From NCBI GenBank assembly GCA_013407085.1, contig JACCGJ010013784.1, positions 31,891 to 95,890 of the forward strand: DNA of 64,000 nt. The letters run 5' to 3'. Within the stretch, counting starts at the first letter, position 1. Each line of letters opens with the position of its first letter. The notes below the pieces were generated by a model. It made no database searches. It was not told the DNA's origin and was given only the letters and a program-made list of their open reading frames with translations. The position numbers and the translations under genes are program-made. Source of the stretch: Atriophallophorus winterbourni (lineage: Eukaryota; Platyhelminthes; Trematoda; Plagiorchiida; Microphallidae). Of this stretch, positions 1,230 to 28,200 are shown piece by piece.

Positions 1230-4200
1230 GTGAGCATACATAATGCAACGTATTGTTTAATCCTAATCACGTGAAGCTATTATCGATCGCAATTCCCATT
1301 TTTGCATGGCCTGCTCTTTAATCAATGGTCGCTTAAATATTGCTCCCAGATTGTTGCACGTATCGATTTTTAGTAGAAAATAATCGGTAATTAAATTTGA
1401 TTTAGCTTTTCTTATTTTTCTTGCATTAAAGCGATCGCACAGCATGGTTACTTGAAGTGTTTTTCACAGGCACAAAACCACGTAGCATTCATGTCTTGCG
1501 GGTAGATACTCTGAATGCATTTTCAGGCATATTTAAATTCTGCGCTGGTACCCAACTTAGATTCTGATTTCCATTTCTTGATATTTGTAACAAAGATATT
1601 AATATCGTTTTGTGGTCATTGGTTGTTGAGAATGTGTTTTCACAAATCCCTGACCAAAACAGTGCACGGTTAACTTATCGAACTCTGACCAACAGGCAAA
1701 GTCTTTACTGATGAAGTTGCCCGATTTTGTTATAAAAATCGATTGAAATTAAAAGTATAATATTGATCAATAAATCGAAAGACAAATTATTCGCTTGGAA
1801 ATCGATCTGCTACAGTGGAATAAATGAACTGAACCAATTTAATGTGACACGTACAAAATTTAAAGTTACCGCATTATGAAATAATTCATCTGTTTAATGG
1901 AGCTAAATATGAAGGTCAAAGCATAATAACTCATACAAGCGAAAACCGTGAAGCGATCAATGTTCATGTGACATGGAGAAGAATGTACACTTTGAAACGT
2001 TTAGTTTAATTTTGCGCGTTCATGCCATTGTTGGGCCAATTAGGTACGACCAACCAATTCAATCAGATTTGCCCATGCACATGTAGATGTTGTTAAAACT
2101 ATGACGATGAACAAAAATCCGTATTTGCAAACATTTCGCTGTACCGTGTTTGATGGAGATCTATGCAAATACGAATTTTTGTTTTTTGAGCATAGGTTTA
2201 ACCTTATTTACGTATGTTCGGGCACCTGTGATGAAACAGGTTGATCGTACCATCCATTAAAATGGTGGCATACAAGCGCAACTTGTGTTTCAAGCGCATG
2301 CGGATCCTGATCTTACTGTCCCTACCTGATGAGTGCAAACAGCACGAAACCGGCCGTGGGGTGTGTGTGACGGAAAAACATGCAAATGAATATTTTGTTT
2401 CATGGTTATGGGATTATCCCCATTAAACATGTGTGTGGACATTTGTGATTGAACAGGCTAGTTGTATCAACCTTATTCAACAGTGGCATAGAAGCGCTCT
2501 TTGTTTAGCATTCCTCCACTGGTTCAAGCGCATGCGGATCCTGATCGTACTGTTACTACTTGATAAGTGCGGACAGCAGGAAACCGTTCACGGGATGTGT
2601 TTGATGTTAATGCATGGAAATACGGGATTTAGTATAATTTTATTCTTTTAGTTTCTTCCGCTACTGCTTACATTGACTTTCCTCGAATGTGTTTCTAGCA
2701 GTGAAATGAACTCGAGCAAACCTAACAGAATTTTTTTGTTCAAACAAAAAATGATGCAATTGGTAAAATGTTATGCGGACATCATCGTTTAATAGCCAAT
2801 GGGAGCTCAAGCACATTTACCACGAGAGTAGAATGTTCTTATAAAACTGAGCGAACAGAGGATTGCGAGCTTTATCGGTGAAGTGGGAAAGTCCCGTTTG
2901 CGAGGTTTGCATGAAATGAATCAACATTGAGCTATTCAGCCATATACACACACATGCTTTTTTCTCACTCAACATACAGTTCATCTCTCTCAATACAGAG
3001 TAAACTGACGCTCTGATTCAGTTTGCTTTTGAGCAATGCATGGATGTTGAATAATATTGGTCATTTAAGGAATATGGACTCATCATTCAAGGATTTATAA
3101 TTACAGAAGACATTTATCTCTACACTATCTACATCAAATTAAATATTTCTCAATGATCAAGCAATAACTCACATACAATCAAGTCAAATGATCGCCGTCA
3201 TTTTGCAAAATGTGTTCCAATTTCGAAGTAACAATAGTTTCAGGACAATTTCGTTGAGCGGCACAGCCCAATCTGTTCGAACGCAGGGCACACTTGCGTA
3301 ATTCATGGAGACTATCTAGTGTTTGCACGCTTATTCCTGACACGCATCGATCGGATTTCGTCTATTTGCGCTATTTTTAACTTGTTTGGAGAACAAATGG
3401 GTCGCACAAACTCACGGCGATCTGATATTTTGGTTATATCTGTATTGCGCTACTGGTTTAGTCAGAACACAACCGCAACTGAGCTGGTGTATGACTTAAT
3501 GGTTGAACATCACATTGTTTGTACAGTGAGCGATTCTCACATTATGCACTTGCGATCAATACCGATTGATGCTCGATCAATAGTTGATTTACTGACCATA
3601 ATGCCATTTTCCTGAGCCCTGGTTCAACAATGTTGCTCAGTTTTAAAATTTCTACAACAGCTTACTCGAATAAATTTTATGATTGCCAGTCATCAAACAA
3701 AAGTCTGTTCTCGAAAAAAACGTTGTTTACTTGGTTATTTTCTTCTAATACCGTAATTCTGTTGGTCAGTGAGGAACTATCATTGCCTGTGGATAATACA
3801 GTGCCACCTTTTATATGATTAATCTCGGGTTGACTGATAAACAGGTTTAATGTTGCCTCAATGTTTCGTTTCAGTGTTGAGTTCAATAAATTTGACAATA
3901 TTAGCTGAATCATTCGGTTTCAATATTGTTTTGAGCTGTGTAATTTCTGGTTTGACTTACCTACTTTGATGAGGTTTTAAAATATTTGGAACAAAATAAG
4001 CTTCTTTCCCATGAAGATCACGGATTTAGGACCAAGCACCGATCTTCTCATAACTCTTGATAACTGCGCTTGAGCCGTGGACAAAGGATACCCAATCTGT
4101 GATTGTTACTTAGATATGTCTAAAGCTTCTGAACGTGTTAACCACAGCATACTCCTACAGAAATTAGAGCAGCTTGGGGTTGGTAGCAGATTATTGGCCT

Positions 4201-7200
4201 GGATGCAGAATTAATTGACGACTAGAGTTATCGGGGTTAGATTTGACGGGGCGTTATCTAGCGCAGTAGAAGTTACAGGTGCCGTACATCAAGGCTGAGT
4301 CCTGCTGTCAATAATCCTTCTGGTGTATGCAAATAGTACCCAGTGAAGTCATTTTATTTATGGATGACTTCAAATTCCGGATTAGCGTGCGCACCATAGA
4401 AGATTGTCAAATTCTACCAAAAGATCTCGATGCAGTTCATACGTGGTCCATACGAAACTGCCTACCATTGAACAGTCAAAAATGTAACATGTTAAACGTC
4501 TGTAAATCCTTCGAATTCACATACTATCTTGGATCTCAGCAACGTTTATGGGTTACGGGAGAGAAAGTCATGACGGCGTGGATTATCAGAAACATGAATT
4601 CTTTAAGGCAGTGTTTTGTGGTACACAAAATTTCCTGCTAAACCTTGGCGCTGGTCAGAAGGATTTTCTGTGGTTTCACAAAACAGGTACACCCACAGAA
4701 AATCAGCACCCATATCCGGCCAACAAGGAAGTACGCTGTTTAAGCATGACAACCTTGGTTACAGCAGGACATAGCTTTGCTGCAATTTGTATACCATTTG
4801 TCTAAAATGCTGGAGGCAGGAATATACATCAAGACACATGTGAAGATGATTGCAGCTATGAGCCTATTTGAATTTTCGTAACCTCGTGTCAGAGGATATA
4901 TGTTCATGTTGTTCAACATTCTGCATAATGTGGATCACCCACTTGAACACCTGTTTCATCGGCAAGAAGCACGTGGTAGCAGATTTCCGGGTACAAGTTA
5001 ATTATTCAACACTCTAGATCAAATTGTCAAAGATTCCTCTTTTTTGACTGAGTTCGTTTGTTAATGAAAATCTTCACCCCCACATATCATTTGCGCATCA
5101 AGCCTGAACATGTTCTAGGCTGAATTTGACAAATATATTTTGTCCAAATCCAACCTCGCACCTGAATACACATGCTGACTTTCCATATAGATAAAACACT
5201 TGTGTTGTTTTTATGTATTCCTCATATTTTTAATCTATGGTTACCGTAACCATTTAAACTTTGAATTACGTTGATCTACTTGTCAAGTCTTCACTCTTAG
5301 TGCTTCCACCTGATATTACCGCAAACAACTGAATTATGTGTGAATTCGGTCATCCACGTAGAGATAATTTGTCCTCCAAATGTCGGCTGTGCCCATATGA
5401 AAACCAGTGTTTTCAAATTAAAATTTTCTTCACTACTTTTAGATTGATATTGTAAAATGTTTGGAATAGATCATGGAATCATATTCATCATGATGAAATT
5501 TTGTAATCAGTCGGTTAGAGCGGTCTGGTGCTAACGTTTCGCTTTTGACACAGATGGTTCATCAGATCAAGGCTGTCAGAACGAACAAAGAGGATGTTTA
5601 ATATACATATGCTTCCACAGTCTTAGGCAGGTTGAGAACTGCGCAGGCTATGGTAGGCGCTAAGCTTGTTCAGATAGACAGGTCACATTATTATCGATTT
5701 GCGCACCCTCAGCACGCTTTGTAATCCCTCAATTGTTTGGTTTGTGTGCAACGCTGATGTCCGCTCCATCCAACATAGATGCCCGTATCCCTACCAACCT
5801 TGCTATTTCAACAGAATCAGCGCAATATAAGTATTCCACCCGCTTTGCTACCTCCATGTTATCAAGATCAACGCTATGCTCTCAGTTGAGTACGTGTGAC
5901 TGATACTCACTGTAATCGCGGGCTTACCGGCAACGTTTGCAAATGATTTTTTATCAAATGTTTGTCGCGTAGCCTGAAAGTAGTGTGATTTAAAAAAAAC
6001 GTTAATGAGAAGCAGCGCATTTTCTCTTTATAAACGTTATGTATTTACCCGACGTGTTTGACATATGATATAGGATTCGTTGATCGACAAACGTTTCTAT
6101 ATTTCCGTAAATGTTCAGGTGGTTTTTATGTGGTCTAAATGTGAGCAAGTCTACGATTGATTTCTTGAGAACCATTGGGTTGCACCAATTGATATTAATA
6201 TAGCTTTTTTATTTCAACATCTTCAGTGTATACTATGCCTCATGCAGTTCTTATTCCGCTTAGGATTGCTCAGGTAAATAGAATTTGAACCTAATTCCTC
6301 TTAGTACTGACACGCTTATTCTTACGAAGCTTCGAACACTTTAGAGGAAGCATTCCTAGAAAACTGCTCAAACCGATTTAATACATACATTACCATTTTT
6401 CAAGACCCATTCACACAAATCTTGCTGTCTCCGTATGTTGAATGCAAAGAGCTCAAACTTTCGAGTGTTTATTTGTACCTTTTAAGTGAGCACTTCCTAA
6501 ACAACCTTGAATCTAATTACAGCATTTGCCCCAGCATTTAATCACGCTACAAAATATATTTGTCTATATGTTCCATATCCGCTTGATGGCTACCAACTCA
6601 AACCGACTTACACGTGCATGCTTGTTTCAATCTGCTAGTCTATTTACTTTAAACATGGAACCATTGCATGATAAAACATACGAGAAAGACCAATTTGAAT
6701 TAGCGCAAATTTCTATACGCCACGGCAGACTCTGAACATATCTGATTGCAAGCACACGTGGTCAAGATATTTGACCAATGCTTTGATACCCTTCAAATCT
6801 TGCACTCATCAATCCGGTCGTGCTCACAAGTGTTTATCACCTATATAACTGAACATCGCGCGTTAAGGGATGCTACATCAAATTAAAAATCGTTAGAATA
6901 GTCAATTATAATGTACTCATATGATCGTCATCGATCAAAAGTGGCCAACAACAATATATGTCAATAGTTCGTAATTATACCGTATAACGCTTTTATTCAT
7001 TCAATAAGGATGAAGTTTATCATATCCCAACACTGATCAATGCTCAATAACCTTGAGTTTGGTGCTCCACGCTGCCTGCACGCAAACTTGACCAATAAAA
7101 TCATAACCTTGTCAGGCCGCTCTCTGATTGGCCGGACAAGGTTCTGAAGGCTGTGTACGGTGTGTGCTGGTGTGATAACGTTTGAGCCACGGTAGCTCTG

Positions 7201-10200
7201 TGCTTGCTAGGGCAGTGCGGAATCTTAGTCGAAGTTGAGACACGTTAAGAATTAGAAAACCTGGGTCTGCGCAAATTGGCAAAGCGCTCGCACCGTACTA
7301 GAGTAAGTTTCTCAGACGTTCTTGAGCCTCTTTTTACCGTATAATTCTGTTTAACTGTCAAATTTTGGGCAAATTTCTAATTATCTCATTTTTTACGGTA
7401 CATATATGTCAATCCGTTTTATACAAATTACCTGTTTCATTTATATCACAAACTAACCGGCCGTTGAATATCATTAAAACCTGTATAAGTTCGAAAATTC
7501 ATTATTGTATCGTTTCAGTATGTTTGTGAGGCCATTCATCATATTCAGAGAAGTTTAAGAAAGCCATCTCGAAACGAAACAATATTAGATAGGTAGGGAT
7601 GCGAGCACCACAATACATTTGTCATTTATATGTGCCTCGAGCGCTTGGGCAGGAATCAGTTTGTGATTCTGTATTTGAACATCGTGGTTCTTTGTAAGAA
7701 CCCTATATAACATTGGCATACAAGTCTAACTTTGTTTACCGCTTTTCCACTGTTTCAAGGCTCACTGAACTTGATCTTACTAACTCCACCTTATGACGGC
7801 AAACAGCCTGAAACCGGTAGAGGTGTATAAGGGATGGGGTTGTGAGCACCACAATACATTAATTTTAGATAGAGTTAATAACTCAAAATTCAATATATTG
7901 TGGTGCTCACATACCCCTTTAATATTTGGTAGCGCAATTTTTAAATCCAAATTGCGGAACAGCTCGGGTATTTGCCATAATCACATTCGTTTTTAATTGA
8001 ATCAAAAGTGACATTTAAATTATTGATTTTAAATGGCCGAAATCGCCTTGACACGAAATTGATTGATATATCAAGGCAATAGGATGATCGAATGCTGCCT
8101 TACTACTGCGATAGTAGGGATCCCTTAGTAAGTGAGTAGGAATAAGTACCACAAATAAATATTTAATTATTTTTAAAAAATCCGTTATAAGGGATGGGAT
8201 AATGCATGTTTGGCCAAAAGAGATTTCTTTTCGAATAATTTGTCTTCGCAAGCAAAATCTATCTCACGGAATTATGGATGAGTCGATGGCGAGCCAGTTC
8301 CATTAAATTCGTGATAAAATCTTGAGCAGCTAGTATATAAATACTCACTCTCAAGAACACTGCACTAATAGCTTATATGGGTGAGACCACACAGTCATAC
8401 TGACCACCTTCTATCAGTCATATATCATCCTATCGCAAAAGGAAAACATACTGATTCTCAATTGCTCCATATTTCACAAGGACCCAATGTGGATGGCAGA
8501 TATAGCTTTTCGTTGACTGGACTTGTCTGGACTACAGGAGTAGCCATCAACCAATATCACAGGAAGTCAACACATGTCACAACTTCGGAGCTTATCACTG
8601 AGTCATCTTTTCTGACAGTCTAATAGTACCTATTGTTTCGTCGTCTACAAGACCTGAATATGCATTATTCTCCATTCATGTGGCGGGGAGTTGACAATGG
8701 CATTATAATATGGAGAACTAGAAAAAATGAACAAGTTGTCTGATCCATTTAGTTAAGGATGTCGCCAATGTTATTGCCAAACGGGAATACTATAGAACAA
8801 TAAACTACCTACAAGAAATCTGGCTCCAAATTATCATTGGATTATTTTGTAAAATGCATCGAGAGCGATTATAATCTCAAGCCAATGGAGCTCTTAATTC
8901 TGACATGACCCCACTCTTATTGACGCAGTGACCTAGATACATGTGCGCACTGGTTGTTATGTATAAGTCACTCCAAGTAGTGCTGTTTATGTACTTGCAA
9001 AAGACTCTATGCCATTTGCAGATCATGGCTGTTAGACGATGAATGGGCTGTGCGATATTACAACGTTTGATGAAAACACGAACCTAGCCTCACACCAGTT
9101 CCAGTTGTGACGCTTTAGTGAAAATTATAAACAAGATATTTAAACAGAATCTCACAACTACTCAGTACAATTAGGAAAATCTCTTAATATTCTAAACCTG
9201 ATCGCCTATAAACATGATACACGCCCTGAGACGGCAAACCTATTGATTAAAAGGTCGAGTTTATTGATTCAACATTGGCTCTCAACTTCATTATCGGCGA
9301 AGACATTCGATGAGGATAAAAAATCCATGCTTTGTACGAAGATGTCTTTATTGTGTTACCTCTGACACCAACGCTTGTGTCTAGTTAAACGGTTGAACAT
9401 TAGAAGATTAGGTGCTAGTCTGTGAAATATAATTTTATTTTTTCTCACTTAAAGGCGAAAGCGAGCATCCATGGTTAGAACAGTGGTATTTCATATGAGC
9501 ACGTGATATGACAGCAGGCTATTGAATGTGCAATAATCGAGAGTTGTTAGAAAAAGCGAATAATGACGATGTGATCAGCTGTTCATTGCAAAAGCATCTT
9601 AGTCGATAATGGATGCATAATCAGGAGAGAATTCTGTGTAATATTCAGGATTGAGCAGTCTGAGGTTTCTAGTCCAGCAATACTGCCGTCTCGTGATCTA
9701 CTTTGAAACGGTATACACAAAACCAGCCTCCTTTCAGGTATTGCGGATATCTGTTGGTAGAAGAAGTCGATCTTTGACACTACATCTGCCATTTTTTCGC
9801 GTTTTCTAACCCGGTTCGGTGATATTCCAATTTGAGTGTTAAAACGTCGAGGTTTGTGGTGATTGAACTGCTTGGTCGTACCAGCCTTATCCAACAGTGC
9901 CATACAAGCGCTACTTGTTTACCATCCCTCCACTGTTTCAAGCGCATGCGGATCCTGATCTTACTGCCCCTACCTGATGAGTGCAAACAGCACGAAACCG
10001 GTCGTGGGGTGTTTTGTGACGGAAATGCATGCAAAATGCAGAAAATGTTGGTTTAACCTCATGGGTTAAAACCATTTGCATGCGTATGGGTACATGTGGT
10101 CGTGCTAACCTTATGCAAAAGTAACTTGCAAGTTCAAACCTTGTTTTAAATCCTTCCCGTTTTCATTCTGGTGTCTTAATGCCTCGACTAACACTGCTGT

Positions 10201-13200
10201 TTAACTGATCACTATTGACACTTTATAAATGGGTTTTTCTGATTGACGAAGTTCCTTATTTTTTATTTTTAACCGACAATTAGTGGAGTTACTAAGCGTT
10301 GTAAAATCAAATCAAATTTTCGTTGCAATAATCAATAAAACAACATAATGGCTGCACATAAGTTGCTATTTTTGCTAAGTTTTTAGACGCATTCCAAACT
10401 GCTCTCATGCATCGTAATGCAGCGCTACTTAACGATTAATCACCTCGACTCTTGGGTCTCAAATGGCTCGCGCTCTTAAAATCTCAACCAATCGAATGAT
10501 AACCTTGATAAGCTAATCACCGATTGGTTGTTTGAAGGTTATCACTGTCAGTGCATGATATGCACATCTTCGATCGTTTAAACAACGGTAGTTTTAACTT
10601 GATTGTGTGTCTGATAGCGCTGTGTGGATTTTAATTTTTCGGCTGTGAAACGTCGCATTAGTCGGAATTCGGAAACCTGGGTCTGCGCAAATTGACAAGG
10701 CGTTCGCGCCGCTCTAAAGTGAGTTTTTAAGAAGGGCTTGATCACATCGAAATGCTGCTTCCTATTTTGGCTAACACTTTTCGCTGCGAGCACATCCAAT
10801 CTGTATAACCTTTGCCTCAATTTCATCTCGATATCATATGAGGACACGTTCTTGCAATCACTGATAAAGGTGACATACAAGTGCTTATTATTGGTAAATT
10901 ATAAGTTCCATCTAGGTAATTGATTACATAATCTAGATGCATATAAAGTTCTGATAAAATTTATATATTTGTTGTAACGTTACACATGATTGAGTTTCAA
11001 AGAACAACTGATAATCTTTTAGCTGTATCCGTTGATTAAAACAAATATTTTCTCGACACATAATTGACATTCATAAATATTTGGCAGCATACATTTATTG
11101 ATCTATAGCAATATACTCAATGTTATATATAGGTTGGGTCCCAAGGGAGACCCGACATTTCGTATAATTCTTAGTACGTAAGTCACTGTAATACTTAAAA
11201 ATGGTAAACGTAGGTTCGTTTAATTATGTCCGAAAAATTTCAAGAAATAATTAATCGATGATAGATTTTCGAAATAAAGCTGAAAACTTGGAGTTTAAAT
11301 TTATCAATTTAATTACTTGGTTATATTGATTACTTCTCCAAAATAACGGTTGTTTGCAATAGCTTAACAATATAGATATTCACACAATACTATACACCGA
11401 GAAAAACATTCCTCTGTCCGTTATTAAGCAAAACTCTGTTTCAAACATATACAACGAGTTCATAGTTTTGTTAATGTACGCCCTCACGGATTTGCGCTTT
11501 AAACCTTCCCTCCAAGTTCCATTTTTCTTAGCGTCCACGCTTGATTGACATCTTTGTCTATGTCGACCGATTCACAAAATTTGAGCATTAAGCGGTCTTA
11601 TACTTAATAATATATTTCACCAAGAAGCCGATCCTCAAATAGGTCGCACTCACTCCGCAAAAAGATATGTAGGCATTATTCGTGGGATGATATTGTTTTG
11701 ATTCGCTGAAACTCCGTTGAGGCGAATCAAGTTTTTCATTTCTCCTTAAACCTTTTCGTCTGCGTGAAAACAGTTTTAGATTATTTTTCTTAACATCATA
11801 ATATAAAGCGTCACCTTCAATCTTCAGAATAGCGGATACCATTTTGTTTGTTGTTGGCACCATACGAACGTTGCTAACCCATCTGATATCCCTGATTAGC
11901 GTTTACTGCATTCTAACACAATAAGTTGCAAGCACCAGTAAAAATAAGCCGTTCCATATTCATGGGCTCTGAATTGGGGCACCATTAGCATGTATGAACA
12001 AGTAATGTGACCAACTTCAATATGGCAATGGATGAAGCAGTTTAGCTGAATGACGTTAATAAATTAATCAATATTCAGATGTCTTGGGGGTATTTGAAGT
12101 CATTTAAAATCCGAATTGTGCTGTGCATAAGAAATGTCAAACGAGGTACTCGAAAAAGCAGTTGACATTTACTTCATCTTGTGCTACGTGGCGATTCGAA
12201 TGTGACTGAATAAAAATATATTTCTATCATCTGCTCCAAATTTCCCGTGCGTGCGAATGGACGATCCACAATGATGGAATAAATCTCACAGTATAAATGT
12301 ATTTAGTACATGTGGTAGAAGTTAGTGAGATCCTACTTCTTTTGCTGAACAGTTCGTTGTTTCCATTCTTCGACCACTTTATATCTCGAGAATGGATATA
12401 TCAGAACAATGGCATGATCAAAATAGTTTGTTAACGTTCTTGAAATACTTGTCATATACCTTGTGAAAAAACATGGTTTCCATATGGATAAAAAGCACGC
12501 GAAAATCCAGTAATTATTGGTATCTAATCTTAACTCATACGGCATCACCCCCTTCGCTAAGTAACACACAGTAGTGTTTAAAACAAGATCTCAAGATTTA
12601 AGATCCATGGTGACAAATGAATATAGCTGTACAATACCATGGGAAATACGTCCAAAGTAACTCAAAAGTTATTCAAAGTTTTAATGGTACGAAAAGCAAA
12701 TACTTTACAGTAACCACTGATTAAAAATATAGGGAATGCATAAAAACAACACAAACGTTTTATCAATATGGAAAGTCAGCATGTGTATTCAGGTGCAAGG
12801 TTGCATTTGGTTATCATATACTTGTCAAGTTCAGCCTTGAACATGGTCAGGCTTGATCCAAAAATGATATGTGGGGGCAAAGAGTTGCATATAAAACAAA
12901 CTCGGGCAGAAAAGAAGAACCTCCGACAATTTTATCTAGAGTGTGGAATAATTAACTTGCAGCCCTGAGATCTGATGCCTCTTGCTTCGTGCCGATGAAA
13001 CAGGCGTTCAAGTTGGTGATCCACAGTACGTAGAACGTTGAACAGCAGGATCAAGTCACCCCTGAGACGACGGTACGAAAAGTCAAAGAGGTCAAGAGTT
13101 GCAATCCTCTCCTCGTATGGCCTGTTATATAGCCCGGTCACCAGTTTGTAGCGCGGTGGTATACGCGTGGTAGCAAGGTCATGTCCGTCTGTAATCATGG

Positions 13201-16200
13201 AGACCATGCTTGAACAGCGTACTCCATTGGTAATCTGATATAGGTGTTAATTATCCGCGTTCTTTCGTGTTTGCGTACATTGGGTTCAAAGGAGGAGCAA
13301 AAGTTATTCCAATTGTGACATGAAGAGGGAACATTTAGATCGGAAATATCGATTATTTTTGGGAGAGTGTGTCTGTAAAACGGAAGCACTAAGGGATTGC
13401 GGTAAACTGTTGCAAACATAGTATTATTTATCTCAAAATATCTTAGCGTTTAGTTGAAGATCATTTCATTTAGTCAGGACACCATTTCTTGGGGTAAACA
13501 GTTCCACAAAAAACATTTACGGACTTGGTAAAATGGCAACGACAGTTTAATCGGGAATGTAGTATATAAAGAATCAGTTTATGACTGTGGGTTGGAAGTT
13601 TTGAACTAATTTTTTGAAGAGGTGTGGATGGGACCCGGTATAGATAATTCGATATGTCATAAGTAGGTCAGGTTCAGTCAAACTTGCCACGCGACACACT
13701 GAACATGCTTGCCCACAACAGCTTTTGAACACAACTCAGTTTGGTAATCACATGTTCATTCCTAGTTGTGCTGTGTAACACCAACGTGGTTGCGGCAGTA
13801 ACTTGCGCAACTATTCAACTTGTCCGAAATTGATTGCCATGCGCTGCATCAAAGGCAGTCGCTAATGCCGCGGTTTATGGATGTGGGTAAACTTTCTGGT
13901 TTGTCCGTCAAGTGAGACAGCAAATTGATTAATTCCGGTACACTAAATGATTATTGATTTGTTTCATATAAACGTTTAGTCGAGCCGCAGCAAATGTGTT
14001 GAGCAAAATCGTTTCACATTTAAATCTAAATGGATAGACTTTTCAATGATAATAAAGTAAGAATTTGGGGCCATTGTTTAGCAGGGTTCGTACAACAATC
14101 ACGAAGTTTAAACACTGAATCTCATAGTGATTTCTCGTCTAGCACTCAAGGCGCTTTTGGATGACCAAAGCGATGTGTTGCTCACATCCCCCGAAATTAT
14201 TCTCCACTACCGGTTTCCGTCTGTTTGCCGTCATCAGGTGGAGACTGTAAGATTAGGTTCAGTGAGCCTTGAATCAGTGGATAAGTGGTAAACAAAGTTA
14301 TACTTGAATGGCACTGCTACATAGGGTTCGTACAACGAACTACGGTGTTTCAACACAGAATCACATAGTGATTCTTGGTCAAGCACACAAGGCGCTTATG
14401 GATGACCAAAGTAATATGTTGATCACATCCCCCGCGCTTACACCCCACTACCGGTTTCTGGCTGTTTGTCTTCATCAGGTGGAAACACTGAGATCAGGTT
14501 CAGTGAGCCTTGAAACTGTGGAAAGTGTACGTGTGTAAATGCGGGTTGTGTGACCGGCACATTATTAAAATTAATAATCTGAAATCGACAGGCTTCGAGG
14601 CGAACTATCATATAGTATATTGTATCATGCAAGCATTGGTTCAGCGTAAAAATATTCCAATTTTTCGCTAGATAGGGAGGAAGATCACCATCCGATGATA
14701 GTTACATCATGACTCGAATTAATTCATTGCTAAAATTTTCCCCCAGGTGCCAGTCACAAAGATACGTTCAGTTGCACCAAATGTAACATTACGTTTGTCA
14801 CCAATTTTGAGCATTAAACCTTGTTCGGCTGTTTCTGATTCTGATCACAAACCAGATTTCAAGTTTTGTGTTCTATTGGCCGTTTGCAGCCTTCTATCGC
14901 AAGACGTTAATTATTGGTGTGTATATCTAATATAAATCCTCATCCCATCCAAATGTCTATGGTTTTGGGATAGATATGGGTTCGAAAATCATTCATACAA
15001 ATTTAGTGGGGATGTACAATATTCGTACACAATCAACATGCTGCAATCTTTAAGTATTTGATGCTTAATCAGAAATTGTTTTACAAAAGAGTTTGGTCAC
15101 GATCACACTTGAGTTTCGAAGCACGAACTGTAGCTTGTTGTGATAACCTCTTACAGGTTTTTGGGTAATGAAATTACACGTTTTAATGGGACGTAACTTT
15201 CAGCTAAACAGGTGAATTGACTACCGATTTAATCAATTAGCTCATGAGGTGCATGGCTATCCAATTGCAAAAATTCCGTTGCGAAGTATCTGCTCCCGTC
15301 GATCAAATTTCGTACTAATTAATACACTCGGGCGTCTACGAATAATACCAGAGCACTATCGGTTCGATCCTCTTGGTTGTGGCAACTCGTAATTCGTTTG
15401 TTTAACCAAATTTAATCGGGATATTTTTCAACCTAATTTATGTAAATCCTTAATTCCCAATGTTAATTTAATTCCGTCTCAGAAGGAACCAATCTCGACA
15501 GATTTGTAGATTCAATAGAAAAATTTAGAAATTGCACATACCTTTAAGGCTTATCACGTTCGAAACGTATGCTGATTGAATGTTTATTGATGAGTCACCG
15601 GCTTATCGATCGTTAAAAGTTAAAATTACGATCGAATCCTAAATGAATTTCAACAAAGATGTATTGAAAATTAGAAATTTTTATGGTTGTTTTTCACGTA
15701 ACAAAAAATATATTGAAACTAGTGACCAACATTTATTAAACTATAAAATGATGCCATTTGAAAAAGGTTATATTTGACTTTGCTTTATTTTTATTGATAT
15801 GCTGCAGTTGAAAGGTTTTTTTTTCTTTGGCGATTTTTTAACAATTCTTGCATTTACTTTGTCCGTTTCACTGACCCAGAAAGGAATTTGACTTCAAAAA
15901 TGTTGCTACCACTGCAACACATTAATCTTTTGCAAGCGTGAAACGGGTCTTTTAAAAATAGTTCAATATTCTGCAAAACACCAAAATACGTGTGACTCTA
16001 CGAGGTTTTGTTGCGTTTTCGTCTGTCACGAACCATTTTCTTTGAGTTCGTTAGACATCTTAACAAAAAGTAATCTTGAGTACGCTACCATTTCGCCTCC
16101 CCTGCTCGTCCACGGCCTTTTGGTCTGATTCAACAGTGGCAGAAGAACATTGGTCAACAAGAAATGAGAAGTAAGCACAGAACCTTTCAAATTAAAGCCG

Positions 16201-19200
16201 CCGTTCATGATGTTGTCTTGATTGTGACAATTGCTGTCTATCGTTGACATTTGAACGAAAAGTTCGTTAATCGCGTGTAAAGTTTTCCTCACGCAGTAGT
16301 TTAAATATTGATTATAAATTATCCGCCAAACTAGTTATATCGAATATTCAAAGGAATCTCTACCTTGAGACATTTAGAATTTAAATGAGCTCTGTGTTAC
16401 TTATTTTAAAAGGGAAGCTGCATGCCCTGCCACATGACGATACCCGAAATTCCCCACAATATACTCAAAATTCTATTGAAACACCCTAACCCGGCCACTG
16501 GAAAAGGTTGTGCCTTGTATCACTCACCGGGATTTCTGATTGGTCGTTACTGATATCAGAGTGCTCACTAAATGATATCGCTTCCTGATTTTTTGTTATA
16601 TTGTTCAGACCAAGGGGATTTACTTTATGGTATTGAGCAGACTGTTCGCATCAACCATGCCAACAGTGTCATACAATTTCAAGATTTATCTTCCATTGCC
16701 CCACTGCATCAAGGCACGCGAAAACTGATCGTACTGGCCCCAACTGATGAGTGAAAAAGCACGATACTGGTCATGTGGTGTGTGTGTGTGATGGGAATGC
16801 ATGCCAATCAGGATATTTGCCGAAACCCATGTGCTTAACCTGTCTACGTGTGTGTAGGCAGTTGTGATTGATCAGGTGACAATCTTATCCAACAGTGGCA
16901 TACAAATTCACGTGATATTCGCCATTTCTCTACTGTTTCAATGAGGATGTGGATTGAACTGTCCTCGCTCGACAAGCGCACGCAGCACAAACTCAGTTGT
17001 AGGGTGTGTGACAGAAATGCATGCGAATACGTATATTTTTTACTTTACCATTCAATCACTGAAACCCCCATACGCAGAATGTTTCTACACTAACTTTTCC
17101 CACAGATTTAGGCACCTTGTGACACTAAATTCAGCAACTCATCGTAACCAGTTCATTTGATCCCATGTCTTAACTGTTCAGTTCAACCGTTAGTTCGAAA
17201 TAAGATTGATTTTTGCATCCAATTTTAATAGTGGTTACATCTGCAATGTTTCAACAACGTGCATTCTATTCTCGTTCAGTTTGACCTTGAGAACGTTGAA
17301 CTACCAATGAAAGATGATTACATCTATATAATCCCAGTTTCACTTAACTATCGATATTCCAAGGCTGACAAATATGTTTACTACTATCATTCATACTGTT
17401 GGTCTCGAAACTCACAACACAATGACAAACACATAGAAAATCATTATCATTTCCAGAGTGACTGATTCGATTAGTATCCTTTAACTAAACTAATCAAGAT
17501 AAGTTTTCTTGTTCACATTCTACTCCACAACGAATGTCAACTTATTTCGGCTTCTCAACAAGCCAATTTTGAGATAAAGAATTTCGTAATTTATCGATCG
17601 AAGATAAGCCACACAAATTTGTCACACTTGACATTTTACGTTCGCAAAAGAAAAGCAACTACTTGCCAACGTTCTACTGTTTGCTTATTTATACAACGTG
17701 TTAGTTTAACAGCATTATTTAGGGGACACGCGCACCAAACGCATGTTTATCTGGATAGCTTTACACGTATGACTTCATATAGGTCGCTCCTTCCTTTAGC
17801 GAGCTTAGTTTGTGCAAATGGAAACATTTTTTATAACAATTTCTGATCAACATATGTAGTATTTTGTTAATAATTACAGTGCTACCGCACATCAAGCGAT
17901 GATTTTATAGATTTTGACGCTTCTTAGCAACTCACTGCCTGCCTGTGCTCTAGTATGGATTGCGACCAAGCGATATTCCAGAAGATAGTATCTGAAGTCG
18001 GACGCTTCGAATGGAGTAGCTAAAGAAATGGAACTAGTATCATTCACGCAATTTACAATCAAGTCAATTCAGATCAAATGACGTTTGTCAAGTTAAAACA
18101 GGATCGCTAAATTACGTTAGCAAGAAACTCGTAAAAGATGTATGTCCGCGTTCATCAAATTCCCCGAACTTACACTCCATTACCGTTTTCAAAGTGGAGA
18201 TAGGAAAATTGTTTCAATAAGACTTGAACCATTGCTAAATCGGTAAAAATGTTCCAAACATTGACACCAATATGTAGTAAGGTTTCGTTAAGCGGACCAT
18301 CTGTTCTAATACTGAATCTCAAAGGGGTTTCGGGTCAATAATTCAAGACATTAACACGCTCGTTGTGTCACATTATTCTGTATATTCGCTTCAAACTCAT
18401 TTAATGCGTTGCCCGAATTTGGAAGCGATGCCTCTGCTAACAAACGTTTTCTCAACATACGTTCCGGTTTGTAATATTTGTAGTTATCAAGTGAGCACGG
18501 TGAATTGGAGCAATGGATGATTGTCTGAGAAGGCTTAAAACAACCAAATTCATCGATCGCATGCATATATGTTAATAGTAAAATACAAAGAACGTACACA
18601 AATTATTCGTGTTGGTATTCCTTCCGGTTGGACACCATGACTGTTCCGGTGGACTTGAAAACACTGAGCACAGTTTGATTAGGTGCAATTTTGAGGCCAT
18701 GTGATGTGAGGATTTGCAAGTTTGTGCTTGCTCATGATTGATCAATATAAAAAGCGAGAAGACCGTGTTTTCTAATGTCAAACTTGTTCACTGGTAGTAT
18801 ACAGGTTTAAACATTGTTAACAATCTACCCTTTTGGGTCCCGTTTGAATACCACAGCTAATCCTAGACAGTGTTGCGTGCTATATACTTTTGACAGAAGT
18901 TCTTCCAGGATGCTTTGTGCTTGTAGATGATTGATATGCTTAACAACAAAAAATGAATATAATCAAAATGGTGGCGGAATGTTTGCTCAGTATATTTATT
19001 CGCTATCCTAATACTGCTCAAACTATTCATCAGGTCCAGATCAAATGGGTTTAAAGCTGTTGTGTATTGTTCTGTATATTTCTCGTGTCAGATTAGCGAC
19101 GAGCGTTGAGCAACATCACGAAATTCCCTGTTGTACGTTTAGCCTTCACATCTGATGATGTTTCTCAGACCAGTCTTTTGACATTGACCTTAAGAGAGCT

Positions 19201-22200
19201 AACTATTAAAAACAAAGTATAGTAACTATCATTATTGTTTATTCTTAAACAGTAGTTTGAAAGATTATACCACTGTTTCCAGTGTTAAATAACGGAAAAT
19301 CAATCGTAGCATAAACACTGCATCAAGTGGTTTTCGGGCCCTCGGAAGTACCGTATTTTGAGAGAGTGAGCAATGAAAATTCGCCTATGGTGTTTTCGGG
19401 ACCTCTAAATTTCGAACCTGCTTGTATCGATGGAATAGTTCAAGCATCATTCGGGCTGTGACTTGAGATATCCTTTAGGCTGCACCATGAGAGTCGAAAG
19501 TGGTGGATGCCTAATGATTGAACCAAAATCTTTTGTGGGATAGACTGTCTGATATTGTAATAAACTCATAATGAATAGTGCATATTAAGTTTGACACTGT
19601 GCTAGTTTGTTTCATGTAGATGCGCCGGTTTATAGACATTTTCATCATTTCCTGTCATCTATCATCACTATTTCCATTAACACAACCGACCCCGAATTTC
19701 AAACACCCTATTGCACTATGGTGATGTGTTACTCACATCCCCCGAAATTACACTTGAGTGCTTGACCACGAATCGCTATGTTATTCTGTGTTTGAACATC
19801 GTCGTTCGTTGTACCAACCCTATGCAACATTGGCATTCAAGTATAACCTTGTTAACCTATTGCACTAGTTGATATTAATCCTTAACACATCGATAAACAC
19901 TATGTTAAATGATCGATTTCATTATTCAGTGACGTAAATTTTTTGTCATTAATACCTTCATCGACCAGATAACCGAGAAAAAGCTTGCTACCACCAACAT
20001 TTGATCTATCGACTGTTCAGCTGAAATCTAGTAGATCGATCAATTTGCATATTGATCGATATCGATCAGGTTGCTTCGCTGCTCAGCCAAGTGCTCGTGA
20101 CCGTTAAACTGGCATTACTCACTGATGTGTAGAGCCTGTCTTAATCGGATATGCACGTATTGTATATCGACCTAGCCATTGTATGCCTGTCGCATTTGAG
20201 GATAAACACTTTTCGATGCATCACGCTATTGTAAAAAGTTAAACATATGACAATAATCTAAATTGGACCAGGATGATATCGATCTGGAATCAGAGCATAC
20301 TGCTGGCGGTGGTTTAAATTCAATTCAATCATTTTAGCTTCAGACGTCAATACGTCTGAATAGCATCGAATATAGATGTGTCCGAACCATTTCTGTGTTT
20401 ATTCAGAGATTTGTTTTTAGATGATATGGGAGTAAAAACGATATGCTTTACATAATCTACAAAAATGTAAATCATATATTTAAAATGATCATTAAATATT
20501 GTTAAAGATTAGTGTCAAACTCTAAAACGTACTTGCCCATATGGGCATCTAGTAATTTGTTTTAAAAAAAGCTACAAGAGTTTCAAATTGTATTAGGTAT
20601 ACTGTTGCGTAATTGCACGATGCAGAAAGAAAACTCGTATTTTCGGCAGTTAAACCTGCTATGCTGTTGATAGAATTTAAACGGGTGGGTTTTCAGAGTT
20701 ATATTAAAAATGTCTTCAAGGATGGTGTGTTTCATTATTCACAGTAAAAATAAACATTAGTGCTCCTCGTTGTCACCTATATTGGGTGGAATGTAGTTTC
20801 ATTCCTCTGAGACGCGTAGCGTATGAATAATAAGAAGTTCCAAAGACAAGCTTTGTCGCTCTGTGCGGTGAAATTTATAATTCTCTAAGATAATTTTCGA
20901 CCAAAGATCCCATGCTGGTATGGTATGTTCGATATGGAAAATTATCATTTCTGGGAACTGTGTATTGTTAAAAAAAAACAATCAGGTTCAGAATAGCTGA
21001 CAAAATGTTCTGCATTAAAGAATAGGTACATCCCGATGCAATAAATTCTCCCTTAACGAAAGTTAGTCAAGCTGAAAACATACACGAATACGCAACAGTT
21101 GTATTGAACACATCGTCAGTCGCAAAATTTGAGCAAAAATCGTTCTGCAAAATCAATAATTTCAAATCAGCTTTCGGTTAATTCCAACGGCTAAATTGAA
21201 AATTCCGATCCATTAAAACTAGCATTGCTCCCTTGCGATAAATTTATCTACATCGATCGGTCACAGACGTTTGGTTTACGTTGAATGTCTGAAATGTTTT
21301 AGCGCCGTACATTCACACGAAGCACGTTAACCGATGACATTTCCGGATACACGTGGTACAATATCGATCCAATTTGGTCGATGTTAAGCTCGTTTATACA
21401 ATCATTTGCCTTTTGAATTGATTAAAATTTCAAAATTAACTCACAATTAATTGCTTTAACCCCATTATCCCAGCTGTCGCATGCTTTCACCGCTATCATT
21501 TTGCACCCGTTGGCATTCTGTTTTCTTTTTGTTTATGCTCGCCAAATGCAGATCGATAATACTAACCCTGGAGAGCATGCACTGGAATCCACGGCTTCTC
21601 CGACCCCTTGCACCACCACTGCCCCAAGCCCTCAGCTTTCCGATCGCATGACTAACGGACAGTCGGCGAACACATGCTCGCCGACTGTTCCCTGTTCCCC
21701 TGAACCCAATTCCCCCACGGAGGTTAGCAACCGGATGTGCTTGCGTAACTGTTTCGTTTGTGATCGTTTTATTGTTTGTTAGTACCACTCACGGACGTGC
21801 ATGCCGTTTATTTTCGTTGTTTGTATTCATTTGAATTTGTATATTTGTGAACATATCAATTGATCATGATTTTAAAGACAAAAGTCAATGGTTGACATGT
21901 ATGTTGTGGAGATTTGGGAAACAAGCATTTCATCCACTGAGAATCTCAAAGTAAATGAGCGTAACACCGACTTGGCAAGAAGGCTTAAAGTATGAATTCA
22001 AATACAAACTATAAAGGGGGTGACCTGAGGGTCATTCAGATTGCAACCTCTGGTAGACGTTGATTTCATTCGCGTATTGAACGAGAGTCAATGTTTACTT
22101 ACTTACGACTGGTTCCACGGATTGATTAGCCGATCAATCTTCATCTGGGGGATGTGGACAAACCGGTGGAGTCTTCGCTGATTGATATGAACGGGAAGAG

Positions 22201-25200
22201 GATGTATTGCACTGCATCGCACCCAAACAGTAGCGTTAGATACCTGGTCAGCATATCGGACGCACAAGATTATCCTGAGGCTTAAGTGTGTGAACAATCC
22301 CATAAGGATTGTGCAACCTATTACTTCAGTCACCATATTTAATATCCATCATGCGGTACAGGTTGGATCGCCACTTCGTACGTTTTGACGAATATTGAAT
22401 ACACTAAAAATGAAACGCACTATTCGAACTATAATTCCAGGCAAATAAAGCTAACCGTGTAAATCAAGAGATTGAATAGCCCAACAAACTTCGAACATTA
22501 TGCAGAATTACGGTTCCTAAAGCTGGCGAATCTTGCCACTCAGCACATAATGACAATTCGATAATCGTTGCAATTTTCGCAGAGGAATAGCATACATATA
22601 CGGACTAAAGTAGACAAACTTGATCCCTATACTTTCATTCTACCTGCGCTTCCTTTACCTGGTCAGTGAATTCATCATGAAACAAAGAGATTCGGATTTG
22701 AGTTTGATGAAAAAGTTAGTGAGAACGAATGTTGTTCTCCGAACTCACGCATTGTACCACATCCATATTTGTATTGTGACTTGCGGAGTTAGCAGTTTCT
22801 CTGCGCCAATCTTTTCAAACAGTTGCTTCCTCCCTTAAGCTTTGTTGAACACTGCCCCATAGTGTAAAGACAAACACATCCTTATTGCGTTCGAACAGCA
22901 CGAATCCGGTGATCCAGCGTAACTGAATAGCATGGATTACGGATATTATTCCACGTGTTATAAGTGCAAAAAATTCAATGTCTTGTTTAAACTCATACGT
23001 TAAAACGCATGCGGATCCTGATCTTATCGCAAATACCTGATGAGTGCAAACCGCACGGAACCGGTGATGGGGTGTGTATGATGGAAATGTATTCAAATCA
23101 GTATTTTTATAATACGTTGAATTATTTCTAGCCATATATATCGATTAAATCAAATTAGAATTCATTGATTTTGCTGAATAGGTTCACGTTTGTTTCAGAC
23201 GCGACGACTTTCTGTTCTCTCGAAGCACTCATCGCCAAAAACTCAAATCGAAGCATTGCTACAAGCAGAGAGCGTTCCTGGAGAATACCAGAACAATCCA
23301 TCATTAATCCCCCCGAAAAGTCCTAAGATTGATTCTGCAGAAGCATCTGAAGCGTCTGTTGCTCCTCCGTCAAACATGCCGAATGAATCACTGGTGAGTC
23401 TAAATGAATGTTGCGTATGCAGTTCGTGTAAAATAAGATTTATAAACATTCTGCTGCTTTTAGTATGGGGGGTAAACGTGTAAAAATGCGGAGAGAGTTA
23501 GGGATAGGAAAATGTATGAAAGAAACGTGAAAATATGTCACAGATTTATTGAACACATTAAGAAAGTGTGAATAGATGTGTGTAGAATAATCGAAGGATT
23601 TAGTCGGCGTATGGATTAGTGGAAGTCTTAAGAATAGCATGCAATGCTAAGCAGTCTACAACATAGCTAGACGCATGCTAGGTATGCTTCGGCGTATTTT
23701 CGGACATTTTTTCCGTGAAACATTCCCCATGCTGATAAATACGTATATTAACCCAGTGATGGACTACACAGTGCAAGCTTGGGCACCATGGCTACAAAAG
23801 GATATCAAGCTGCTCGAGAGGATTTATCACAGAGCATCCAAAATGGTTGGCTGTCTCCGCATAATACCATATGAGAATCGACTCGTGCATCTTAATTCGG
23901 ATACACTGCTTCGCAGACAGGTTCGATTTGATCTGATCGTAACTCATAAAATAATGAACTCAAAGATGCACCCTCCGAGGCATCTATTTTGCCTCCGGTC
24001 AAGCCATGTCACACGTACTCACCCACTGGCATTTGATATTCCACATTCTCACCGGAACTGACGTCAGTTCATCTATTCATTGCGCGTTTTGTTTCTTATG
24101 GAACTCCCTACCGTCAGATATTGTGCAATCATCTAGTGAAATGATATTCAGGAACAAATCGGATATATTTATGCGTAGTTATTCTGCCCTACATCCCGTT
24201 TATATAACATGATCTTTATCCAAACGAATATTGTTTCCATAATACCGCTACAATACATGACATTTTATTTTCTAACTACAAAACTGTCGATCTTCCTAAT
24301 GCCTCAATTTATTTTGTATATATATTTATTGTCCTTATACTAATATCCTGTGGTGTTGTACAGCTACAAGCTTTTTTATACCGTAAATTCTTGAATCTTG
24401 AAAATATATAAGTCGCTTGTTTTATTTGTTCGATTTTTCATTTGATTGATTAGCAAGATAATCAAAACCTCAATGATCTTTTATATTCAATCTTGTGGTA
24501 TCTATCAGCGACTAGACAGTTGGTTCTCTGCTTCTATCGTGATGCTCACGTTTTTAATATCGTGAAAATTCAATTTCTTTACCGGCACACTCTATAATTT
24601 TGTGTGTTGTTGCGCACATCGTATTCTCTCATAGCCAATCCATCTTTATCATAATGGCATTTTTCTGCGTAACCTATTTAGATAACACCACCACGGCATC
24701 GATTTTTAGTTTTTTGTGTTGCTTCCTTGTCCTCTGATCCGACACACTGGTTGTGCTGTGCTGTGCCGTGCCGTTTGCGCGTGTGTTTCTAACTTTGTTC
24801 GTACACGCGCGTAGGTCCTGATAGCGGTTTTCACGAGACCCCGACTCTATATTATGTGCTCACTGAGTTATGCAACTTTATTGATTTTCCGATGGTATTT
24901 GTGCTTACATTTATTTGAATCGATCCACATTACATATCTTTCACTTCACGCGTTGCGCTATCATTGCTATTTTGACTTAATCTAGCGTTCACCTATGATG
25001 ATGACTGCAGATCAGACCATGCAACCAAATAGATTTGTTCATTTGGCGTTTTAAACGATAAAGCAAAAGTGTGGATTTATGATAACTTGTTTCAAAGACT
25101 ATTTTGTGTTTTTATTTTTGAACTGAACGTTCGAGACTTAGTTTCGACTTGGATCCGTGGAATAGTGTCTAGCAAAATTCGTAACCATCAGAAGCACTAG

Positions 25201-28200
25201 TCATCTTATATGTCAATGTCATCAGCAATTATACCATCGTCATCTGCACCACCCCTATCGGGGTATTACGGATGATAAAACAACGTCATCATGATGTTGA
25301 TCTGGCAGCGCCGTCTGCATTGTGGTCATTGAGGAGATAAGTGCAATGTCTAAAATATCATCATTATCGACCGCAACATCAACAGCGTCTGATCAAAATT
25401 ATCAGTAGCGTCATCATCATATTCAGCATGATCATAATCCACATCAGCAGCATTAATATTATCATCGGTTTTATCAACATCTTTGGCATTATACGCAATA
25501 TCATCGTCATAGTCATCGTCAGCACCATCATGATTTCTAGCACCCAAGTTGTCAACAGCATGATCATCGTCATCGTCGTCATCACCATTATCGTATTGAC
25601 TCATGGTAAGTATTCAACTCGACTATACTTGACATTACATGTCTATATTATAACTTTTCCTGAACGAATATTTACTATGATATGGTAATTGTGAAGCTAT
25701 GTGCTTTTTGTGACCATAAATTCTTGAATCTTTAATCTTTAATCGTCACCACCAATATCATCATCATTATTACCATCCTCCTTCTCCTATTACTCCTCCT
25801 CCTCATGGTCAACATAATCATCATCATCGCCATCATCATAATCATCACCAACATCATCATCATCATCGTCATCCTCCTCATCAACATCACCATTATCGTC
25901 ATCATCAACATCATCATCATCATTACCATCCTCCTCCTGCCACTCCTCTTCTGCATTGTCATCATAATCAACACATTCATCATTGTCATCATAATCATAA
26001 TCGTCATCTTCCTCCTTGTAATAGTCATTATCGTCATCACCAACATCATCAACATCATCATCACCGTGATCATCGTCATCACCATGATCATCATCAATAT
26101 GGTCATCACCATCATCATCATCATTACCATCCTCCTCCTCCTCCTCGTCATCATCATCATCGTAATCACCATCACTATCATTATCACCATGATCATCCTC
26201 ATCCTCCTCATCGTCATCATCATCGTCATCATCGTCATCACCACCATCCTCATCATTATCGTCATCTCCAATATTATCAACAACATCATTGTCATCATCA
26301 TCATCGTTATCACAAACATCATCGTCATCTTCGTCATTATCATTGACATCATCGTTATTATCATCGTCATCACCACCATCATCATCATTATCATCATCGT
26401 TATCACCGTTCTCTTCCTCCTCCTCATCATCATTGTCGTTATCACCAAGATCATCATCATCATCCTCAGCATCATCGTCTTCATCATCATCCCCACCATT
26501 CTTAAATCCAGGATCACCGATATCTACAGGTTTAGTCTATTTGTCGTCTTTCGCATCGTGTTGAGCACCATAACTAAAAGTGTTTCAATTCCATTCGAAA
26601 GTTACCTTCTAATGTGCCAATTTACATGCAGCCATGCAACTCTCCCCCTGAATACCAGTTTGAGATTTCATGTATTCTTGGAATAGGTTTTATAACAATT
26701 CCTAATTTACTTAATGTAATCCGGTAATAATGTAATCTCGTTTTATTCCAGTCCCCGAAAATTGATTCAACTCACACTCCTGAACTCGTTATGGGCCGCA
26801 AGTTCAGCGACGAAGAAGACAATGAAGATGTAAATTGTTGTGATTTTGAATGGAAACTTCCATCCATCCATCCATTCATCCATTTATCCATCCATCCATC
26901 CATCCATCCATCTATCCATCCGTCCATCCATCCACCCATCCATCCATCCATCCATCCATCCTTCCATTCATCCATCCATCCATCCATCCATCCATCCAAC
27001 CATGAACCCATCCATCATCAATCTATTCTTCCATCCATCCATCCATCCATCCAACCATCCATCCATCCATCCATCCATCCATCCATCCATCCATCCATCC
27101 ATCCATCCATCCATTCCTCCATCCATCCATCCATCCATCCATCCATCCATCCATCCATCCATCCATCCATCCATCCATCCATCCATCCATCCAACCATCC
27201 ATCCATCAATCAATGAATCGAATTTTACCCACTCATTAATTTTTCATAAATTTCTTTCATTTAGCTCCATATGCGTTATGAACTTGAAGAACTTTCGAAA
27301 CGATTCGAAAAAGCGTCATTGGTTCTCAACAGTCCATCTAGATTTGGTGTATTTTTGAACTACTTATTTGCTCAAAGTCACGATCCCGCTCCCGCTGTAA
27401 GTTGAGAGAAAACGTTTTTGTAATTGTGCTACTCATTAGTAGCAAGTTCATCACTAATCTTCTCACTTATTTATTCAAGCTTTTCTACCTGGTGAATCAA
27501 TACTTCCAAAGGGCACTGCAGGAATCCAAGGAACTGACCAAGGATCAAAAACGAGTGTCTATAGAAATATTTTCTACATTTTTACATGAAAAATCCGTGA
27601 GTTTTTTTGTGTGGAGCCATGCAACACTGTACTCCTTACTTTTCAAACGAATACACTCTAATTCGAGATTATAAACCAACACACAATTTGTTAGAAAATA
27701 TGTGCCCAGAATAATTCGGATAAGTAACTTTGAAGATAATCGATATTTTCAATTGTTGTCATCATTTAGTACGCTAACATGAGAACAGCCGCTGCAACTC
27801 ACACATGAATTATCCTTTCCATAGCTTATTCGCGATGAGAAAGATTTGGTTCTTTCAGACAATACATCATATCCTGTTAAAATGTTACATCTTGCTTTAG
27901 CATATATCACATTTTGATATTTTTTCTCGAAATCAGTCAATCGTATTATTAAAATAGCTCACGAACTGTCAAATTATTATTTTTTCGGAAGAACCTTTGA
28001 CAATTTGATCTAGTGTGTGGAATAATTAATTTGTAGCCGTGCGATCTGCTACCACATGCTTCTTACCGATGAAACAGGTGTTCAAGTGGGTGATCCACTG
28101 TATGCAGAATGTTGAACAGCATGATCATATATCCACTGACACGACGCTACGAAAAGTCAAATTGGCTCAGAGTCGCAATCCTCTCCTCCTGTGGTTTGAT

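Follow-up and report, generated by a model that had tools for sequence, protein, structure and literature searches.

The 64,000 nucleotides of Atriophallophorus winterbourni DNA analysed here, referred to as the window, carry a dispersed repeat of about 240 bp that contains a type I hammerhead core at 9968-10009 on the plus strand. The reading that we prefer, and to which we give a probability of roughly two in three, is that this repeat is an animal non-LTR retrozyme, that its tandem transcripts are cut mainly as double hammerheads and that its copies were inserted by a Penelope-type enzyme using two fixed internal starts of reverse transcription. The repeat is likely a partly decayed element, with marks of mobility, of the non-LTR retrozyme or SMalpha-like kind. 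That kind is itself already known; the window offers unusually direct evidence of how its members are inserted.

On the strength of its bases, 9968-10009 is a real hammerhead core with self-cleavage predicted after C10003. In this copy, called copy A below, the boxes can be read directly: CTGATGA at 9974-9980, GAAA at 9994-9997, CCGG at 9998-10001 and a GTC triplet ending at 10003, with stem II formed by GTGC/GCAC (9981-9984 with 9990-9993) and inner stem I by CCCTAC/GTGGGG (9968-9973 with 10004-10009). The boxes follow the order CUGANGA, GAAA, NUH with stem I open, and this reading bears out the initial annotation, which had placed the catalytic boxes and stems I-III in order within 42 bases. 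The Rfam model RF00163 (Hammerhead_1) matches exactly 9968-10009 over model positions 1-45 of 45 with 32.9 bits, at an E-value of 2.3e-6 for a search of 601 bases and 2.5e-4 for the whole window. The covariance-model hit above threshold by which the annotation was to be checked was narrowly missed: the score falls 1.1 bits short of the curated cut-off (34 bits), and an Rfam scan at the gathering threshold listed nothing. A second match to the same model at 2320-2361 (25.3 bits, E 0.084 in the window scan) is identical to 9968-10009 at 41 of the 42 ribozyme bases, the U before the cleavage position being replaced by C. With a descriptor consisting of the catalytic boxes and three stems and allowing no mismatch, 9968-10009 is the sole site in the window, and one mismatch adds a single site at 30419-30459 on the minus strand. 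Thirty dinucleotide-shuffled windows yielded one perfect site, and sites with no more than one mismatch numbered 12 in them; this puts the chance rate of the bare perfect motif at about 0.03 per window. Matches to a looser pattern at 34247/34258-34290 on the minus strand failed the stem test and were rejected.

The doubt over a chance motif is largely removed because relatives within the window keep the same fold with compensating changes. Sixteen ribozyme copies were aligned, leaving aside G2, whose core is degraded, J, which has lost its core, and the inverted piece 53978-54039, and were compared with a 20-pair structure drawn from these same copy sequences. Across the 16 copies, 79.5% of 298 cells are paired, against at most 40.4% with the partners slid; two-sided changes are found in 29 cells, against 16.2 in shuffles; and the covariation score of 0.244, against 0.157, was reached by none of 500 shuffles. 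Compensating changes occur at nine of the 20 pairs of the hammerhead stems. Two of the five covariation measures are no higher than in the shuffles, namely the number of pairs with a two-sided change (nine, reached by 90 of 500) and the number of further pair types (19, reached by 366 of 500), and many two-sided changes fall between the two subfamilies of the repeat, so that a few events are counted repeatedly. The clearest of these is the switch in an outer stem I that was absent from the first reading: it is GCAUGC/GCAUGC in one subfamily and GCUCAC/GUGAGC in the other, and its two GCATGC arms in copy A lie at 9944-9949 and 10027-10032 on the plus strand. An internal loop within stem I is also present and partly conserved across copies. 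Folded as single strands, five domains of 92 or 90 bases gave z-scores of -2.29 (copy A), -0.98, -1.62, -1.30 and 0.01; in the best such fold of copy A the outer stem and stem II are retained but the boxes are closed, and copy F adopts a different fold. Copy A also contains a conserved small hairpin at about 9866-9888 with weaker covariation, its score being reached by seven and its pairing by 11 of 500 shuffles.

Stem III is the peculiar part of this ribozyme. GAAA is followed by CCGG and then by UC, so that the stem is the palindrome ACCGGU (9997-10002, plus strand) with zero loop bases; the bases of the stem III that had been annotated are there, but in copy A the loopless palindrome cannot close as an intramolecular hairpin. 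Two-strand co-folds predict that it pairs between two copies instead. The 54-base core as a single copy folds best at -17.0 kcal/mol, but this is not the active form, which lies 4.5 kcal/mol higher at -12.5, and the co-fold of two copies is a double hammerhead at -36.3 kcal/mol, in which the dot-bracket structure places stems I and III between the strands and stem II inside each. For the 92-base domain, the best fold has -32.5 kcal/mol and the best with the boxes held open -29.3 (3.2 higher), and the co-fold is again a double hammerhead, at -67.9 kcal/mol against 2 x -32.5 for the separate best folds. As the palindrome leaves no room for a loop, cleavage is predicted to occur mainly as a dimer, and efficient cutting by copy A would need a partner copy. 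There is precedent in PMC7229834 and PMC6155905: in published assays of axolotl and newt hammerheads whose one-pair stem III bears a palindromic tetraloop, cutting was poor in monomers and good in dimers, and some natural hammerheads likewise lack a closed stem III hairpin (PMC7229834).

The annotated dispersed repeat around the hammerhead was confirmed at about 14 loci in the window, where one profile aligns 23 pieces. The repeat falls into two subfamilies with monomers of 239 and 241 columns; subfamily 2, which was modelled separately, has GTA instead of GTC in several copies. By profile matches, copy A occupies 9859-10157 (plus strand) and amounts to about 1.3 monomers, with a ribozyme-less partial second monomer at 10097-10157. 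Tandem dimers occur at four loci: copies C and B at 2012-2643 (plus; locus BC, 2.2 forward units), copies G1 and G2 at 16625-17041 (plus; 1.8 units), copies H1 and H2 of subfamily 2 with the GTA cleavage triplet at 14051-14526 (minus; 2.0 units) and copies K1 and K2 of subfamily 2 at 36024-36419 (minus; 1.7 units). Copy A and copy D (49737-50232, minus) stop about 60 bases into a second unit. The other loci are copy F of subfamily 1 (22976-23108, plus), copy E (43560-43917, plus), copy J (53944-54200, plus), in whose direct arm the ribozyme core is deleted, copy N (19719-19855, plus), the subfamily 2 copies I (7595-7860, plus), L (30388-30612, minus) and M (51349-51454, plus), and the old and weak copy O (18152-18349, minus; 49.4 bits). 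All three boxes are kept in five of the 16 ribozyme copies (A, D, H1, H2 and L), and by the descriptor copy A is the only one in the window with all boxes and all stems. The GC content is 0.40-0.46 in all four cut-to-cut units, below the 50% described for retrozymes. Folded as circles, these four genomic units, none of which carries two intact ribozymes, are no better folded than shuffles (z 0.45, -0.05, -0.50 and 1.58). Relatives of 9850-10160 were found in neither phage nor plasmid records. An exact 17-base ribozyme word occurs in two stretches of viral contigs, which were judged by eye to be overlapping pieces of phage DNA without any other resemblance, and was put down to chance; a 20-base word of the repeat, present in no viral and four bacterial contigs, was likewise taken as chance.

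The surroundings of the repeat lend no support to the location in an intron of a host pre-mRNA that the initial annotation had proposed: the searched frame with cellular protein relatives is about 37 kb distant. This frame, at 47061-47459 on the plus strand, is a likely coding exon with three protein relatives of 59-77% identity over 58-72% of the query. On the minus strand, 57214-58915 holds DNA transposon remnants with the Pfam domains DDE_1 (E 1.3e-44), HTH_Tnp_Tc5 and CENP-B_N, presumably Tigger/pogo-like, and the transposase is overlapped by an inverted duplication at 58413-59967, a self reverse-complement of about 1.5 kb at 90% identity. A separate dispersed repeat, at most about 600 bp long and with copies 67-88% identical, is found at 4698-5274, 12657-13257, 27988-28408, 41044-41643, 47782-48120 and 60674-61125, and long TCA and TCCA microsatellite arrays occupy 25809-26491 and 26859-27211.

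How the copies begin and end carries the argument for the mode of insertion. Positions in the unit are given as phase, counted from the predicted cut; the locus ends are local-alignment estimates, and some phases were set by hand (the end and start of copy N, the end of copy F and, in the adjacency test, the pieces of copy N, whose two arms the profile mapping had fused). At 13 loci, copy O excluded, the forward 3' ends fall at phase 41-58 or 155-167, two arcs that cover 29 of 240 positions, as tight as none of 100000 random draws; with copy O (phase 29) included, the cover is 41 of 240 and again none of 100000 draws reaches it. The two sites are more than 100 bases apart. The 5' starts show no clustering, 44435 of 100000 random draws being as tight. 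At five loci the direct piece adjoins, at its start, an inverted piece in head-to-head orientation: upstream of the dimer at BC (2012-2136), at D (50094-50232), at E (43560-43655, with a ribozyme remnant of its own), at J (53944-54030) and at N, where a split made by eye gives a 36-bp inverted and a 101-bp direct piece. Random placement gave at most two such pairs in 20000 trials. Both 3'-end sites also serve as starts of inverted pieces: at D, E and N the inverted start lies near phase 38-46 and the direct end near 155-167, and at BC the order is swapped, with the inverted start at 147 and the direct end at 58. At J the direct side fits and the inverted piece starts at neither preferred site. 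Another reversed fragment of the unit, phase 16-40 (E 0.027) and tail-to-tail, lies in an inverted repeat at 7836-7917 that adjoins copy I, and a below-cut-off match to rli51 at 7837-7925 covers this inverted repeat.

Target duplications of 9-12 bp flank three of the 14 loci, longer than the 4 bp that retrozyme duplications exceed, and no trusted duplication was found at the other 11. Copy N lies between perfect 12-bp duplications, CCTATTGCACTA, at 19707-19718 and 19856-19867, and none of 200 random pairs was as good. Copy I is flanked by a 12-bp duplication with one mismatch (7581 and 7861) and locus G by the 9-bp duplication TTTACTTTA (16619 and 17039), each at p 0.01 as a single-locus value among 14 loci tested. 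An 8-bp flank match at J (p 0.04) was rejected, as it falls within the locus's own inverted piece, and a 7-bp match at D (p 0.095) was not accepted as a clear duplication. A direct pair, an inverted unit and a duplication come together at no single locus: BC has the direct pair and the inverted piece without a clear duplication, and N has the inverted piece, the direct piece and the 12-bp duplication without a pair.

The repeat was not recognised at first; it is recognisable in kind by its length of about 240 bp, low GC, arrangement from monomer to dimer and 9-12-bp duplications at three loci. Metazoan non-LTR retrozymes were described by Cervera and de la Pena (2020; PMC7229834) as units of 150-450 bp with a type I hammerhead, in arrays from dimers upward, with a GC content below 50% and duplications of more than 4 bp. 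The present repeat shares with them the hammerhead type, the unit length, tandem copies from dimers, the low GC, the duplication length and the lack of any coding region seen; it differs in being present only as monomers to about 2.2 copies. The published retrozyme RNAs are also called 'highly self-paired' (PMC7229834), whereas circles of the present units fold no better than shuffles, and a further difference is the loopless palindromic stem III, which one axolotl family of the same paper also has. That the hammerhead is of the type known from schistosome SMalpha, newt satellite and Penelope elements is upheld. With SMalpha/W36 of Schistosoma mansoni it has in common a dispersed, SINE-like repeat with a type I hammerhead and a very short stem III, although SMalpha measures 333-335 bp against about 240 bp here and the two are likened by description, not sequence (PMC8490949). 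The newt and axolotl satellite hammerheads are similar in their stem III, a single pair under a palindromic tetraloop, and in published cleavage that is mainly dimeric, but their units are 330-350 bp long (PMC7229834, PMC6155905).

For the insertion anatomy, the closest likeness is with Penelope-like elements. Rotifer Penelope inserts include two direct units of about 218 bp and, next to these at the 5' end, an inverted unit, with duplications of 8-10 bp; head-to-head is the commonest inverted arrangement, and some families have direct units only (PMC3846280). In work with the purified Penelope enzyme of the anole, both DNA strands were cut and extended and two internal RNA sites served as starts, and the ribozyme of that element is cut only with the protein present, the cutting being unneeded for insertion in vitro (PMC11167929). 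Paired direct units, an adjacent inverted unit and duplications of 8-12 bp are also seen among the loci of the window, though never all at one locus, and two internal start sites and the use of both strands would be further points in common (PMC3846280, PMC11167929). The differences are the coding region, which was not found here among 32 of 46 frames, the extended stem I of the present hammerhead and the spacing of the start sites, which is more than 100 bases here against a 'tail' of 30-40 bp between the sites in Penelope (PMC11167929). The 2020 retrozyme paper (PMC7229834) goes no further than to name Penelope-like elements a strong candidate for the mover, because the two share ribozymes and tandem copies and occur together, and in its main text the words 'inverted' and 'head-to-head' never occur.

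This likeness raises the possibility, which we consider unlikely, that the units are no independent retrozyme at all and instead solo or truncated pseudo-LTRs of an autonomous Penelope-like element whose coding part is missing. Their length, the direct pair with an inverted unit and the duplication lengths do resemble published Penelope inserts (PMC3846280), yet at BC, G, H and K one unit follows immediately on the other and no coding part separates them. A Pfam scan of 32 of the 46 frames of at least 110 amino acids found no reverse transcriptase and no GIY-YIG endonuclease domain; the remaining 14 frames comprise eight within or next to the simple-repeat tracts at 25.3-27.4 kb and six that share sequence with the transposase. 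The ribozymes can be argued either way, as those of Penelope are described as lacking helix III (PMC6155905), and the present stem III amounts to no more than a loopless palindrome, but also as minimal (PMC7229834, PMC6155905), unlike the long and covarying stem I seen here. The reading frame of the anole element begins within the ribozyme and the cut lies 26 bp downstream (PMC11167929), and in copy A the ATG inside CTGATGA at 9977 lies 27 bases ahead of the cut. The frame from this ATG is open for 30 codons in A (9977-10066), 41 in H1, 31 in H2 and 67 in I; however, an ATG is inherent in every CTGATGA, and in five of the nine copies that keep it (C, G1, F, K1 and L) the frame closes after 12-14 codons.

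Somewhat more improbable, in our judgement, is that the repeat is a SINE-like element whose pol III type transcript was copied by a LINE through ordinary target priming, with the inverted pieces as products of twin priming. SMalpha is itself called SINE-like (PMC8490949), and the frame 56287-56712, which has a relative carrying PF20049 and which we take to be a LINE fragment, would suit this reading. Four subfamily 1 ends (G, F, J and the inverted piece of E) coincide with five or six consecutive T, which could be a pol III stop; at the second 3'-end site, by contrast, T runs do not exceed four bases in A and E and are shorter in D, H and N, and the fact that both sites start inverted pieces also speaks against this reading. 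ARAGORN found no tRNA gene, and A-rich tails are absent from the 13 forward ends inspected. That the hammerhead is a look-alike without catalysis in an ordinary repeat seems very improbable: the bare motif does turn up about once per 30 shuffled windows and its RF00163 score is below the cut-off, but the fold kept in 16 copies, the compensating changes and the second copy's own match to the model at 25.3 bits (E 0.084) argue against chance.

Under the non-LTR retrozyme reading, tandem transcripts of the repeat would be made and would cut themselves, mainly as double-hammerhead dimers; the cut units would be circularised by a host ligase, and the repeat RNA would be copied by a Penelope-type enzyme starting at the two fixed internal sites. 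Of the self-cleaved, possibly circular RNA suggested by the initial annotation, the cutting stands as a prediction, but a circle from the copy A locus alone is not expected: with one ribozyme and only about 60 bases of a second monomer, its transcript would be cut, yet should release no circle by itself. Copying of the Penelope type is preferred because the insertion anatomy agrees with published Penelope inserts. Our confidence is slightly reduced by the published account of Penelope inversions, in which the inverted units result from an antisense template and self-priming (PMC3846280); to have them primed from both target strands would be our own reading.

A more general proposal can be put forward tentatively, at rather less than even odds: that animal retrozymes are copied by Penelope-type enzymes in such a way that both nicked strands prime on a single ribozyme RNA, from two fixed sites on either side of the hammerhead domain, with the direct arm ending at one site and the head-to-head inverted arm beginning at the other. 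Among the matches listed in literature searches, no title or abstract described retrozymes with this insertion anatomy. The two-point 3' ends, the head-to-head inverted arms and the duplications add to the question of which machine moves retrozymes. One can look for the pattern at once in any genome that is rich in such repeats, and the model in which the circle serves as template becomes testable. If the proposal is true, the anatomy of the DNA alone would settle which machine moves hammerhead circles in animals.
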